Shown here in pieces: positions 13,550 through 39,842 of a DNA stretch of 64,000 bases. Made by a program: the position numbers and the translations under genes. Numbering within the stretch: the first letter of the stretch is position 1; the number at the start of each line of letters is the position of its first letter. Origin of the DNA: Loktanella sp. 5RATIMAR09 (GTDB taxonomy: Bacteria > Pseudomonadota > Alphaproteobacteria > Rhodobacterales > Rhodobacteraceae). Under the pieces are notes generated by a model, which was given only the letters and a program-made list of their open reading frames with translations, did no database searches and was not told where the DNA came from. The stretch is from contig NZ_LJAL01000012.1 of assembly GCF_001419985.1 (NCBI RefSeq), forward strand, positions 1 to 64,000, in the 5' to 3' direction.

Positions 13550-14449
13550 TTAGTTACCTGCCTCATTTGTGCTTATTGTTGTTGTGCTCCGGCGCAGGGC
13601 CTCTGCGGCCTCTTCATTCATCCGGAGTGTGGGTCTGTTGGTATTGCGCATGTCCACAACCGCCACATCGCGGCTGAGCATGTCTTGCGCATCATTCAGC
13701 GCGATCACGCGATCCAGCGCGGCAACGGGATTTTCGCTGGGCAAGAGAATGCGCTGATCCCGATCCAGCACCATATCCCACCGACGCTCGCCCATGCGGA
13801 CAAGGCCGCGCACGCGGTCAATCAAAGGCCCCGCCGCCGCAAAAAGGTGGAGCGCCTGCGCAATATTATCTTCGGCCCCGTCCCCTGCGATCAGCGGCAG
13901 ATCAAGACGGTCTGCACGTGCCGCGATTTCACCGGACTGGACACCATCGGCATCAATCAACCGCAGCACCGTGCCGTCACGCCAAAGTGCCACCGGCACA
14001 CGCGGGGTCAGCCGCACTTCCAGCGCGCCACCCTGCCCCACGCGCACAGACGCCGATTTGATCGGGTCAAGCGCTTCGATACGCGTGCGGATATTCTCAA
14101 GGTCGAGTTCGAACGAAGAGACGGGGAATTCAGAGGGGAGCAGTGCAGCCACATCTGTCAGATCAGCCAGATCGCCACCGGTCACATTCATGCTTTGCAC
14201 CATGAATTGGGGACGTTCCTGAAAGCTCTGTTTCGTTTCTGCAATCGTCGCAGCAAATGCTGCCCGGTTTTCAGGCTTGGAATACCAAGAACCTGCAATG
14301 ACAAGGATCAGCAGGATCGGTACACCGATCCGGACAGTTCCGCGAAAGCCCGGCGTCAGCATCATCCGCTGATAACGATACCCAATGCGTGAAGGTGCGG
14401 GATCCCGTGGGGCCGTATCGGGTGCTGTGCGGCGGATCAACGATCGCAT
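13550..14449 (-). CDS. ftsQ: Cell division protein FtsQ
   Basis: FtsQ is a bitopic inner-membrane protein that links early and late division proteins with FtsB and FtsL. The 299-residue product has a charged cytoplasmic N-terminus, one membrane span around residues 40-57 (GVPILLILVIAGSWY), a POTRA domain (about 85-155, with the LDLENIRTRIEAL block) and a beta domain. It overlaps the end of ddl by 13 bases and touches ftsA, so ddl-ftsQ-ftsA form one tight translational unit. No unusual length or missing region is seen. Confidence 0.94.
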   Translation of the reverse strand: MRSLIRRTAPDTAPRDPAPSRIGYRYQRMMLTPGFRGTVRIGVPILLILVIAGSWYSKPENRAAFAATIAETKQSFQERPQFMVQSMNVTGGDLADLTDVAALLPSEFPVSSFELDLENIRTRIEALDPIKSASVRVGQGGALEVRLTPRVPVALWRDGTVLRLIDADGVQSGEIAARADRLDLPLIAGDGAEDNIAQALHLFAAAGPLIDRVRGLVRMGERRWDMVLDRDQRILLPSENPVAALDRVIALNDAQDMLSRDVAVVDMRNTNRPTLRMNEEAAEALRRSTTTISTNEAGN

Positions 14450-33936: not shown

Positions 33937-34171
33937 CGCAGGACCCCTGTTTCGTTTGTGTTCAAAGTCGCGCCAACATTTGGCAGGTTTGTGGCGAAGC
34001 GCAAGGGCTCGGACCCCGATGCCTAATTATGTGACAGTTTCAAGACGATAGGTCAGGTATGCTTATGCATTTGCCGCATGGCAGCATTGCAGAAAGGTCT
34101 ATTGTGCAACCGCAGCATCATCATACATCTTGGTCACAACACAGCGGCACAGACCGCAACGCAATTAGACA

Positions 34172-34399
34172 ATGAGTAGTACAATGACCGTTCGTACCGA
34201 AACATTCTTTGCTGGCACTTCTTTGGGTGAGCGCATTGCGTCATTCCGCGCAGGGCTGGCCGTCAGAGCTGAACAGCGCCGCGTTTACAACCAGACGCTG
34301 CGCGAACTGCAAAGCCTGTCGTCGCGTGACCTCGCCGATCTGGGCATGTCGCGCAGCATGATCCAATCTGTCGCCTACGAGGCAGCATACGGAAAGTAA
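34172..34399 (+). CDS. DUF1127 small protein, host gene of the CcsR-type RNA array
   Basis: A 75-residue basic protein of the DUF1127 (YjiS-like) family. The domain is the C-terminal part, from about residue 30 to 68, with the hallmark RELQSLSSRDLADLGMSRS. In Rhodobacter sphaeroides the orthologue (CcaF1) is an RNA-binding protein co-transcribed with the CcsR small RNAs under heat-shock sigma factors; the same arrangement is seen here, with the hairpin array starting 11 bases after the stop. The start is uncertain: ATG at 34172, or ATG at 34184 four codons later; neither has a strong ribosome site. No clear sigma promoter could be fixed by eye in 34020-34170. Confidence 0.88.
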   Translation: MSSTMTVRTETFFAGTSLGERIASFRAGLAVRAEQRRVYNQTLRELQSLSSRDLADLGMSRSMIQSVAYEAAYGK

Positions 34400-34409
34400 T
34401 TCACGAATT

Positions 34410-34443
34410 CAGATCTGCTTCCTCCTCCCTTTAGGCAGATCTG
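34410..34443 (+). ncRNA. CcsR-type hairpin 1
   Basis: Perfect 9-bp stem CAGATCTGC/GCAGATCTG with the CCTCCTCCC motif at 34421-34429 in the loop. Confidence 0.8.
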
Positions 34444-34445
34444 GA

Positions 34446-34482
34446 CCAAGGCCCATCGCTTCACCTCCTCCCGAGGCTTTGG
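34446..34482 (+). ncRNA. CcsR-type hairpin 2
   Basis: 7-bp stem CCAAGGC/GCTTTGG (one G-T pair), motif at 34464-34472 in the loop. Confidence 0.75.
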
Positions 34483-34490
34483 GTCAGCAA

Positions 34491-34532
34491 TAAGGTGGCG
34501 GCATCCACCTCCTCCCGGGTGCCGCCACTTTA
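34491..34532 (+). ncRNA. CcsR-type hairpin 3
   Basis: The strongest stem of the array: 13 bp (one G-T pair), arms 34491-34503 and 34520-34532, motif at 34508-34516. Confidence 0.82.
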
Positions 34533-34544
34533 TAAAACCAGTTT

Positions 34545-34577
34545 CGGAACCGCCCATCCTCCTCCCGGGTGGAACCG
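34545..34577 (+). ncRNA. CcsR-type hairpin 4
   Basis: Stem of 3 plus 6 bp interrupted by an AA/AA internal loop (arms 34545-34555 and 34567-34577), motif at 34558-34566. Confidence 0.75.
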
Positions 34578-34588
34578 ATGATACCGCA

Positions 34589-34618
34589 GGCCGCGCTCAC
34601 CTCCTCCCGAGCAACGCC
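34589..34618 (+). ncRNA. CcsR-type hairpin 5
   Basis: Weakest stem: GCTC/GAGC next to the motif (34600-34608) and an outer GGC/GCC across a 3-by-3 internal loop. Confidence 0.65.
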
Positions 34619-34627
34619 AGCGAGGAC

Positions 34628-34666
34628 GCGCCTTGCTTCTTCTCCTCCCGAGACGCAAGGAGGCGC
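34628..34666 (+). ncRNA. CcsR-type hairpin 6
   Basis: Stem GCGCC/GGCGC plus TTGC/GCAA with a bulge; loop motif at 34641-34649 is the variant TCTCCTCCC. Confidence 0.7.
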
Positions 34667-34678
34667 TGATAAATAAAG

Positions 34679-34712
34679 ACGGTCATGTCCACCTCCTCCC
34701 GGGCATGGCCGT
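34679..34712 (+). ncRNA. CcsR-type hairpin 7
   Basis: 9-bp stem ACGGTCATG/CATGGCCGT (one G-T pair), motif at 34692-34700; it doubles as the stem of the terminator. Confidence 0.8.
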
Positions 34713-34719
34713 TTTTTTT
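34679..34719 (+). terminator. Intrinsic terminator of the DUF1127-CcsR transcript
   Basis: Hairpin 7 followed directly by eight T (34712-34719). Confidence 0.88.
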
Positions 34720-34735
34720 GTCAAAAGCGAACCAC

Positions 34736-35299
34736 TCAGCCGTCAGTCTTGAACAGCTTCCAGATCTCTTCTGATAAAAACCCGTCCATGAAGACAGGTT
34801 TAATGTGATACCCTGCTGCTTTCGCATAAGGGACTGCGGTGCTGACAACGAAACCGCCGCCCGAAATCGACGTCACGATCCGACGCCCTGGCGGCGGGCC
34901 ATTGGTGTGCAATTCGACACCAAAGAAGCGCTTTCTTCCGGTCCCCAACAGCGCGTAGATCTCGGACCACGCGATCGTCTGACGCGCGAAGCGGGTCTTG
35001 CCATTTTGCGTTTCGCGAAAAGTGATCCCGGTCACGTCAAACGTCACTTCCGCCATGCGCATAGGCAGGAAACGCCAAGCAAGCCACGACAACGCCACAA
35101 GCAGGAACGTGGACCCCATCAAGGTCCTGACGACCGGATCACCTGAGCGCCAGCCCGTGAAGTACACCGTGAAACACAAAAGCATTGCGGGAAACGCCGC
35201 CATCAAAAGAAACAATGCGGCCGCGACAACGGCAGGGCCTTTCCTGCCTGACCGGATCGTCCTTGGTTCCAAAGCTGGCAAAACGCTACCCCCTGACAT
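34736..35299 (-). CDS. Two-span membrane protein of unknown function
   Basis: I do not recognise this 187-residue protein. It has a short proline-rich N-terminus, two membrane spans (about 24-50, AVVAAALFLLMAAFPAML, and 60-78, LMGSTFLLVALSWLAWRF) and a soluble C-terminal half predicted to be beta-rich (VTFDVTGITFRETQNGKTRF, IVTSISGGGFVVST), which has the look of a bacterial PH-like domain. It overlaps the Lrp-type regulator gene by 14 bases at its start, so the two are likely one unit, and it is convergent with the CcsR array (17 bases between the terminator and its stop). The coding character is good; the function is not known. Confidence 0.7.
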   Translation of the reverse strand: MSGGSVLPALEPRTIRSGRKGPAVVAAALFLLMAAFPAMLLCFTVYFTGWRSGDPVVRTLMGSTFLLVALSWLAWRFLPMRMAEVTFDVTGITFRETQNGKTRFARQTIAWSEIYALLGTGRKRFFGVELHTNGPPPGRRIVTSISGGGFVVSTAVPYAKAAGYHIKPVFMDGFLSEEIWKLFKTDG

Positions 35300-35810: not shown

Positions 35811-36410
35811 ATGACCTATGAAATCCTTATCGCATTGATCGGCTTTGCCTTTGCAAGCTCTGTCACACCCGGACCTAACAACCTGATGCTCATGGCTTCG
35901 GGGGCGAACTATGGTTTGCGCCGGACGGTGCCGCATATGCTGGGCATTTCCATCGGCCATGCCTTTATGGTGGCGATGGTTGGCATCGTCTTGTTGCAGA
36001 TTTTTGCGACCTATCCTGTCCTGAATATTGCACTCAAAGTCCTGAGTGCGGCCTATATGCTTTGGCTGGCGTGGAAGATCGCCAATGCCGTGCCCCCCGA
36101 AGCCAAAGAAGTGACAGGCAAGCCGTTCACCTTTTTGCAGGCAGCGGCCTTTCAATGGGTCAACCCCAAAGCATGGTTCATGGCGATTACCGCGATCAGC
36201 GCTTATGCGCCGCAGGATCGGGGCCTGATCATCGGGTCTGTCGTGGTGGCTGTGGTCTTTGCTGCCGTGAACCTGCCGTCTGTCACGGTTTGGGCGTGGA
36301 TGGGGGTGCAGGTTCGCCGCTGGTTAGGCACCGCGCGTCGGCTCCGGGTCTTCAACGTGACGATGGCGGTTTTATTGGTGGTATCACTTTATCCTATGCT
36401 GACGCACTAA
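35811..36410 (+). CDS. RhtB/LysE family amino acid exporter
   Basis: A 199-residue inner-membrane exporter of the LysE superfamily with about six spans. The N-terminal signature [17 protein letters not shown] is at residues 14-30, and the [12 protein letters not shown] block near residue 117 is also typical. Exported substrate (a hydrophobic amino acid or homoserine lactone type compound) cannot be told from sequence. It is divergent from the Lrp-type regulator. Its last 17 bases overlap the end of the convergent ureG gene. Confidence 0.9.
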
Positions 36411-37017
36411 GCCCGCCCGCCTGTTTGATGAAATCGACAACCGCATCAATGCCTGTTCCGTGGCGCAGTGCGCAAAACACAAACGGGCCATCCCCGCGCA
36501 TGCGCTTGCTGTCGCGTTCCATGACCTCAAGCGAGGCGCCTACATGCGGGGCGAGGTCGGTCTTGTTGATCACGAGCAGATCAGACCGCGTAATCGCAGG
36601 CCCCCCTTTGCGGGGAATTTCCTCGCCTGCGGCGACGTCGATGACATAGATCGTCAGATCGGCCAATTCGGGGCTGAACGTGGCGGACAGGTTGTCGCCC
36701 CCGCTTTCGATCAACACCAGATCGAGCACGGCATGCCGGTTTTGCATCTCGGACACGGCCGCGAGATTGATCGACGCGTCTTCGCGGATGGCCGTATGCG
36801 GGCACCCGCCGGTTTCAACGCCAATCACACGGTCTTGCGGCAGGATTTGCATCCGCATGAGCGCTTCGGCGTCTTCTTGGGTGTAGATGTCGTTGGTGAT
36901 CACACCGATCGAATAGATTGGATGCAGCGCACGGGCCAAGGCCGCCGTCAGCGTTGTCTTGCCGGCACCAACAGGGCCACCGATGCCAACGCGAAGCGGT
37001 CCATTCATTCGGGTCAT
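36394..37017 (-). CDS. ureG: Urease accessory GTPase UreG
   Basis: UreG is the GTPase that powers nickel delivery to apo-urease, with UreD, UreE and UreF. The 207-residue product has the P loop [11 protein letters not shown] near residue 11-21, the [11 protein letters not shown] block near residue 70 (the CPH nickel motif), and the [10 protein letters not shown] nucleotide specificity segment near residue 152. The ATG at 37017 overlaps the ureF stop as ATGA; the longer frame upstream lies in ureF. It is the last urease gene and converges with the exporter gene. Confidence 0.97.
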
Positions 37018-37661
37018 GAGCGGAATATCCTTGGTTGTTGCGTTTCGTGCCGCATCGCGGCGATATCGGACAGAAAGGCGGTGCTTTGCAAATCGTCGCA
37101 GGTGAGCGCCATTGCCGCCTTCGCGGTCTCTTCGCATAGCGGCGAAAGTGCAGCAAGAACCGCCTGCCCTTCAGTCTGGCCCAGCGGCATCAAGCGCTGT
37201 GCGGCCGAAATCAGATTGCTGGTGATGGCGTGCAGATACATCGCAGCGGTCAAAGCCACATCAATCCGCAGCTTGGCAGCAGCGGCACCGACGGCAACAG
37301 GATAGAGGTACTCTGCCCCTTCACCGCGCCAGATTGCACCGGTCGTTTTGCAAAAGGCCGCACCCTGCAATGCTTGCTCCAACTGCCGCTCGGCTGACGC
37401 CGCAATCGCTTTTGCCATCGCATTCACCTTGGCCAAGTCTTGTGACCCGTCGGCATCATGGGCCGCGCGCAGCAAAATGCAGTCGTTGCGACCGCTGCCA
37501 TGCGCAATTACATCCTCCAGCCATTCCGCGAGGTCAGCCCCTGATGCGACCCACCCCGCCTGCACCGCGGCCTCAAGCCCGTGCGAATAGGCAAACGCCC
37601 CCACCGGAAACGCGGGCGACAGCCATTGCGCTAAGGTCAAGATTTCGCGGTTAGTGGTCAT
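37014..37661 (-). CDS. ureF: Urease accessory protein UreF
   Basis: UreF is a helical accessory protein of the urease activation complex that gates UreG GTPase action. The 215-residue product shows [21 protein letters not shown] near the N-terminus (only the core cited), a family signature, then the helical core with LLRAAHDAD near residue 70. The ATG at 37661 is used (11-base overlap with ureE); an ATG at 37676 would add five residues. Position between ureE and ureG is standard. Confidence 0.94.
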
Positions 37662-38124
37662 GGGCAGTGGCGACATGTTCGTGGCTATGCGTGCGCCCGT
37701 GACCGTATGCGCCACCTTCGGGGGTAAATGCCGCCGTGATGGGTGTGACCGTCGCACCAATATGTTCGAGCATATGCCCAATCACCGGATCGGCCTGAAT
37801 GACCAGATGATCCGCCGCAATCTGGCACGGTGTATGCCGGTTGCCCACATGCCAGGCAACGCGCGTCAGGTCCGTTGCCGTGACGCGGTAAAGCGCCTCT
37901 TGGGCGGCGCAAATTTCAATCAGCCGTCCGTCATCCAGTTCCAGCGCATCTCCATGATCGAGTGACATGGTTTTTGCCAGATCAATCAAAAACGGCTCTC
38001 CCGTTGTGGTCGTCAGCCGCTTGCGGCGCAGGAACCGCGCGGCATAGTCAAGTTCGCACTGCACGGCAGGGCCTGACCACTGGCCTGCGCGGTGAATGAT
38101 TTGGGCAATAGGAAGCTGTTGCAT
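37651..38124 (-). CDS. ureE: Urease nickel chaperone UreE
   Basis: UreE delivers nickel to the urease activation complex. The 157-residue product has an N-terminal peptide-binding domain, the metal-binding domain with YRVTATDLTRVAWHVGNRH near residue 75-95, including the conserved metal histidine in GHMLEHIG near residue 118, and a His-rich tail ([16 protein letters not shown]) with six histidines. The ATG at 38124 is used because it gives the family N-terminus MQQLPIAQII. It starts 8 bases after ureC. Confidence 0.94.
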   Translation of the reverse strand: MQQLPIAQIIHRAGQWSGPAVQCELDYAARFLRRKRLTTTTGEPFLIDLAKTMSLDHGDALELDDGRLIEICAAQEALYRVTATDLTRVAWHVGNRHTPCQIAADHLVIQADPVIGHMLEHIGATVTPITAAFTPEGGAYGHGRTHSHEHVATAHDH

Positions 38125-38132
38125 GGCGGGCC

Positions 38133-39842
<1,710 letters not shown>

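Follow-up and report, generated by a model that had tools for sequence, protein, structure and literature searches.

Organization of the locus

The window, a 64-kb stretch of DNA, carries seven consecutive hairpins on its + strand at 34408-34723, 3' of a short gene on the same strand. This gene (34172-34399, + strand; alternative start 34184) was identified as an open reading frame (ORF) encoding a CcaF1-like small protein of 75 amino acids. It matched the DUF1127 family in Pfam (PF06568) at 42.7 bits against a cut-off of 23.3, in agreement with the preliminary description, which had placed a DUF1127 gene before the array. In our scan, which may omit records close to the genome of the window, the named relative nearest to the protein came from Loktanella sp. 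PT4BL (92% identity), and the next relatives in the named-locus scan were from Yoonia maricola (65%) and then from another Yoonia. Upstream of the gene lies a conserved promoter block (34055-34130, + strand), which was delimited in an alignment of 23 of the 54 upstream regions of the genus (alignment A2).

Hairpins 1 to 5 were located by motif scan, folding and covariation at 34408-34445, 34450-34485, 34490-34533, 34544-34578 and 34585-34622 (+ strand), with loop motifs at 34421-34429, 34464-34472, 34508-34516, 34558-34566 and 34600-34608, respectively. Hairpin 6 (34628-34666, + strand) was placed by the minimum-energy fold and carries a variant motif at 34641-34649. Hairpin 7 (34667-34723, + strand; loop motif 34692-34700), placed by folding and covariation, pairs into a run of eight T, which bears out the earlier suggestion that the last hairpin serves as an intrinsic terminator. 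Hairpin 7 was missing from the output of a simple terminator scan, which permits only shorter loops. A convergent ORF lies at 34736-35299 on the minus strand, and hairpin 7 sits just beyond its end.

Two further observations were made in the window. The sequence CCAGTTTCGGAACCG (34538-34552), which starts ahead of hairpin 4 and extends into its 5' arm, is apparently more conserved in the alignment of arrays described below (A1) than pairing needs. At 39401-39689 (+ strand), the Rfam model 5_ureB_sRNA matched with 99.6 bits (gathering score 40). Since minus-strand ORFs at 36394-38184 resemble what we take to be ureG, ureF and ureE, this match is probably an antisense reading of conserved urease coding sequence and not a real antisense RNA.

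Loop motif and fold of the array

The nine-base sequence CCTCCTCCC occurs exactly at six + strand sites, starting at 34421, 34464, 34508, 34558, 34600 and 34692, and no further copy was found on either strand of the 64-kb window, where shuffling gave an expectation of 0.30. The seventh copy, in hairpin 6, reads TCTCCTCCC. The earlier claim that all seven hairpins share the same nine-base loop thus stands for six of them and fails for hairpin 6, while the core TCCTCCC is present in all seven. The motif starts are 43, 44, 50, 42, 41 and 51 bases apart, matching the described spacing of 41-51 bases.

Folding of the 326-nt region gave -141.1 kcal/mol, compared with -99.5 kcal/mol in shuffled sequences (z = -7.2), and none of 100 shuffles folded as well. 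The minimum-energy fold leaves all nine motif bases unpaired in hairpins 1-5 and 7, and in hairpin 6 it pairs the first four. A chance repeat was ruled out by the motif count relative to shuffling and by the fold z-score.

Conservation of seven units in the genus

We searched 56 genomes of the Yoonia/Loktanella group, treated here as the genus on the basis of the named relatives, with the DUF1127 protein and found a relative in 54 of them. The genus loci were anchored on the DUF1127 gene and not on the motif, and exact TCCTCCC cores were counted downstream of the best relative in each genome. An array was counted as a run of cores whose spacing lay between a minimum of 18-20 and a maximum of 110-115 bases. 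The results showed exactly seven exact cores in 43 of the 54 loci, a count of related species and not of independent events. Under this strict rule the other 11 loci had six cores (six loci) or 11, 5, 3, 2 and 1 (one locus each). Six of the non-seven loci were rechecked: three (L069, L089 and L093) showed seven sites at even spacing once a mismatch at one core base was allowed, two (L056 and L098) showed six sites each, and L102, near a contig end, showed fewer. The locus with 11 motif copies (L096, genome G174) has a spacing that suggests a block duplication of units 4-7. Another genome of the genus has three further motif copies that form a run of their own at a separate place (G003:C5:20150-20241).

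The preliminary description had also stated that the stems vary while the loop is constant. We aligned only the 43 arrays with seven exact cores, the window's included (alignment A1). In this alignment 96.6% of cells were paired, and 35 of the 54 drawn pairs had changed on both sides, with the core kept in all seven units, in line with that statement. None of 500 shuffles reached any of the five covariation measures. As a control, pairing fell to 36-47% when the partners were shifted by 1-3 columns. Hairpin 6 is not drawn in the consensus structure, probably as a result of misalignment caused by indels.

The motif core was itself the selection rule for the genus counts, the loop folding, the unit matching and the rows of A1, so its constancy in these analyses partly reflects how the data were chosen; at the two preceding positions, on which no selection was made, C was found in 86% and 96% of units. 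We then considered 98 arrays: the 54 of the genus, 43 chosen from 80 named loci, and the array of genome G166. Among their 798 units, 710 folded with the core in a closed loop with five or more pairs, compared with 135 of 798 when the flanks were shuffled. This fold was found for 289 of 359 genus units and 421 of 439 units elsewhere; for the remaining 70 genus units, no fold placed the core open in a closed loop.

In 691 of 840 comparisons, the best match of a unit in another species was the unit with the same number, indicating that seven separate elements have been inherited and not one repeat re-copied again and again. Across 250 random species pairs, unit identity was highest for hairpins 3, 4 and 7 (0.79, 0.78 and 0.88) and lowest for hairpins 1 and 2 (0.64 and 0.60).

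Relationship to known RNA families

These features identify the locus as a CIN1-type cuckoo RNA locus of the CcsR/alpha-r14 (NfeR1) kind, a family that is already known. The preliminary description had already recognised its CcsR/cuckoo-like character. Consecutive hairpins with a CCUCCUCCC loop and variable stems follow immediately on a short DUF1127 gene of the same orientation; in one of the seven loops, U replaces the first C. The loop sequence is anti-Shine-Dalgarno, again as described earlier, and this term is used in the accessible parts of PMC3927594 and PMC10746234.

Two Rfam models were compared with the array. The ar14 model (RF02344) scored 57.2 and 50.1 bits (57.2 and 46.2 on a shorter stretch), below its gathering score of 58.8, and the 57.2-bit match covers hairpins 1-3. 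CcsR1 (RF02791) scored 32.0 bits (E = 3e-6), below its gathering score of 65.3. Covariance scores under threshold had been named in advance as grounds against the assignment, and the scores do lie under the gathering cut-offs, yet the thresholds are poor tests here. In a sample of 150 genomes of the bacterial family, the CcsR1 model matched 126 at E <= 0.001 but passed gathering in 7, which shows that fixed-length models test a family of variable modules poorly.

Among the closest described systems is the CcaF1-CcsR1-4 locus of Rhodobacter sphaeroides (RSP_6037; RF02791). There, too, a DUF1127 gene has a 3' UTR with CCUCCUCCC hairpins in tandem, ending in a terminator, and the whole forms one operon according to excerpts of PMC10253847. 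It differs in layout: its CcsR1 model has two hairpins, and in the presumably equivalent CcsR-type cluster of genome G122 the motifs are paired, with spacings of 39, 65, 38, 66, 38, 64 and 37 bases, whereas the window has seven near-even hairpins. Alpha-r14/NfeR1 of Sinorhizobium meliloti (RF02344) is similar in that its several hairpins differ in their stems and all present the same CCUCCUCCC loop, but it has three hairpins and its own RpoD-type promoter (PMC10746234, in excerpt), unlike the seven hairpins after a DUF1127 gene in the window. The cuckoo family (CIN1; Reinkensmeier and Giegerich 2015) is cited for CCUCCUCCC hairpin RNAs with variable stems in the available text of PMC10253847 and PMC10746234, and nothing that excludes membership was found in these citing papers, through which we know the family. 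According to excerpts of PMC3927594, such hairpins number three in SmelA075, four in SmelA099 and two in RS0680a, an RNA of R. sphaeroides; in the two Smel RNAs the loop is anti-Shine-Dalgarno and the stems vary. A full-text literature search of partial coverage, run outside the cuckoo-family, CcsR and CcaF1 papers, met no array of more than four hairpins per RNA, no array without the gene and no PhaR at such a locus.

Copy number across the family

The sample of 150 genomes was drawn evenly, each from a different genus. At least one tandem motif pair was found in 126 of them. With the window's own genome left out, the remaining 149 had a median of 3 pairs and a maximum of 25, and 43 had six or more; these counts are rough, covering whole genomes on both strands and including some chance pairs (in some genomes a control with the reversed pattern also gave hits). 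They also miss wider gaps, as in G122, which has 5 pairs by that count but 8 motif copies.

The largest array, in G166, has 26 units (L120, 2438-3577). It consists mostly of a 140-bp three-hairpin block, repeated 6.5 times with 97% identity, and has grown by recent segmental duplication. Among the 80 named loci, between 0 and 23 copies lie downstream of the match, with 23 in Loktanella atrilutea, 20 in Oceanicola sp. m2, and 15 each in L. fryxellensis and L. salsilacus; a looser count that also accepted CTCCTCC gave higher numbers for L160, L188 and L200.

These numbers overturn the earlier view of the window array as expanded relative to four copies in R. sphaeroides. The CcsR1 Rfam model describes a two-hairpin RNA. 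Among the matches listed, the cluster that most plainly resembles CcsR1-4 consists of four adjacent matches in G122 and holds eight motif copies in four pairs. The comparison of four with seven had therefore set RNAs against hairpins: a CcsR-type cluster of four RNAs, which we infer G122 to hold in its R. sphaeroides form, carries eight motif copies. Seven hairpins are the normal number in the genus and nothing special, and they are few compared with the 23 and 26 found elsewhere in the family.

The DUF1127 gene and the array

Among 30 loci fetched from other genera, 18 have an array of at least four units, and 17 of these 18 arrays are preceded by a DUF1127 gene of the same orientation. This neighbourhood would suit the protein sponge considered in the preliminary description, in which the seven loops titrate an RNA-binding protein such as the DUF1127 product. 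Autoregulation would be the outcome in that case; CcaF1 of R. sphaeroides does bind RNA and affects CcsR maturation (PMC10253847 and PMC8307010, in excerpt). The gene and the array can be separated, however. In genome G007 (99% complete), the promoter block runs directly into seven motif copies with no DUF1127 ORF between (L119, 1440-1890), two other DUF1127 genes being located elsewhere in that genome. An array in another genus (L032) also has no DUF1127 ORF upstream. The arrangement in G007 indicates that the RNA can persist without its neighbour and weakens the sponge, and a protein site would not need exact Shine-Dalgarno complementarity. Sponging of the DUF1127 product is thus disfavoured as the main role, and we regard it as unlikely.

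We also compared the loop with start regions. GGAG or GAGG was absent from all 53 DUF1127 start regions of the genus in which the start could be set, compared with 23 of 89 other ORFs from the window and 24 genus loci (P = 8e-6 if the species were independent, which they are not); the baseline ORFs were taken to start at the first ATG. Pairing of the loop with the DUF1127 start regions had a median of -3.6 kcal/mol and never reached -8 kcal/mol, and 16 of 43 window ORFs reached -8 kcal/mol at their first start. For the other genera, 59 of the 80 named loci entered the test, six of them without a clear start. There, GGAG or GAGG was found in 3 of 42 start regions before arrays of four or more units, and 7 of these 42 regions paired at -8 kcal/mol or better. 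The tetramers occurred in 6 of 11 start regions before smaller arrays and in 40 of 218 flanking ORFs. Avoidance of Shine-Dalgarno sequences is thus milder in other genera than in the Yoonia/Loktanella genus.

Promoter region

Within the promoter block, a PhaR-like site, CCGCATGGCAG (34074-34084, + strand), differs by one mismatch from CTGC-N3-GCAG, and is followed on the same strand by TTGTGCA-N3-GCAGCA (34102-34117) and CATACAT (34122-34128). CTGC-N3-GCAG was found upstream in 43 of 54 genus loci (shuffle mean 0.4) and TTGTGCA-N3-GCAGCA, which the window matches, in 48 of 54 (shuffle mean 0), the shuffles ignoring common descent in both cases. Of the 38 genus loci that have both elements, 29 have TTGTGCA at a distance of 28 from the first site.

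CTGC-N3-GCAG is the PhaR site of R. sphaeroides (PMC12542648, in excerpt). A phasin gene of the window's genome (Pfam PF09361) has two perfect copies of it upstream of the start, 28 bases apart. Of the two PhaR forms, this one alone was enriched upstream of the 54 genus loci; the S. meliloti form, YGCRNYGCR, occurred in 10 of 54 (shuffle mean 10.2). A search for CTGC-N3-GCAG followed after 5-25 bases by TGCA-N3-GCAG hit just the array locus in each of G007 and G009; the genome of the window gave no hit. The sites offer a lead towards control of the locus by PHB status, with PhaR as the putative regulator. Separately, in genome G000, which has four exact TTGTGCA-N3-GCAGCA sites, one (C5:13876-13891; L123) closely precedes a second DUF1127 gene (13968-14192), which is encoded on the other strand.

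On reading, the block also shows a conserved TTG at 34102, followed 22 bases later by TAC. A legend in PMC10673084 gives the RpoHI/HII consensus as -35 TTG / -12 TAT, and a legend in PMC10253847 reports heat-shock-sigma (RpoHI/RpoHII) control of ccaF1 in R. sphaeroides; PhaR-type sites are what was seen at the window locus. A sigma-70 scan gave no match, and any sigma factor assigned to the block, RpoH included, would be a putative one.

Proposed function of the array

Taking the observed gene, hairpins, terminator-like end, covariation, and conservation of loop and copy number together with the characterised relatives, we consider it likely that this CIN1-type locus produces a 3' UTR array that is processed into anti-Shine-Dalgarno RNAs, which block ribosome sites. 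Homology predicts co-transcription, processing and target silencing in the window organism. One transcript would comprise the small CcaF1-like gene, the untranslated seven-hairpin array and the terminator, and the array would be cut into short RNAs, most likely by RNase E in A/U-rich linkers. Excerpts of PMC10253847 and PMC8625941 report processing of ccaF1-CcsR by RNase E. In the window, linkers 2/3, 3/4 and 6/7 have A/T fractions of 0.69, 0.64 and 0.74 (25-44% in three stems measured) and resemble candidate RNase E sites; linkers 1/2, 4/5 and 5/6, at 0.45, 0.56 and 0.35, are less A/U-rich or not so at all.

Each CCUCCUCCC-type loop would then pair with GGAGG-type Shine-Dalgarno sequences of target mRNAs and prevent ribosome binding. 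In the available text of PMC10746234, alpha-r14/NfeR1 silences ntrBC through redundant loops that pair at the start region, and NfeR1 lowers an ntrB reporter whereas a mutant in all three loops does not. The sole role of the stems would be to keep the loop open and protect the RNA, which would explain why they drift by compensatory change while the loop stays. Multiple loops would provide dose and redundancy, and the DUF1127 mRNA may be exempt from self-silencing through its non-canonical start region, a weaker part of the proposal. Full nine-base complements of the motif, GGGAGGAGG, occur at 13 genome sites outside the array on both strands, and by eye only about one of them (L109) stands ahead of a plausible start codon. 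Full complements were therefore uninformative for predicting targets, and with so few of them, targets must pair over fewer bases.

The loops could instead act as a ribosome or initiation decoy, mimicking the 3' end of 16S rRNA, capturing a binder of the tail and lowering translation globally. Several loops contain ACCUCCU, which is also part of the 16S rRNA tail, and many similar loops per transcript would fit a stoichiometric decoy; the exact 16S tail pattern was not found in the window's draft genome. We know of no factor for such a decoy, and the relative NfeR1 acts on mRNA through loop pairing (PMC10746234, in excerpt), which makes the decoy very unlikely. That the hairpins form a passive 3' end, merely protecting the DUF1127 mRNA and terminating transcription, fits the terminator at hairpin 7 and the general ability of stable 3' hairpins to protect mRNAs, but is highly improbable given a loop kept despite stem drift, seven separately maintained units and an array in G007 that stands without the gene.

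A bolder form of the anti-Shine-Dalgarno reading would make the locus a counted, self-exempting throttle on translation tied to carbon storage: a seven-loop transcript released by PhaR would silence mRNAs with strong Shine-Dalgarno sequences, the DUF1127 mRNA would escape by having none, and the number of loops would be set by lineage (seven here, 23-26 by segmental duplication elsewhere). As a whole this form is speculative, and we give it a small chance of being right.

The survey provides a natural series from two to 26 hairpins, one genus in which the number is kept at seven with orthology unit by unit, and one species that has the array and lacks the adjacent protein gene. Three questions can now be tested: whether copy number sets the dose, whether the DUF1127 protein is dispensable for the RNA, and whether the locus is under PhaR.
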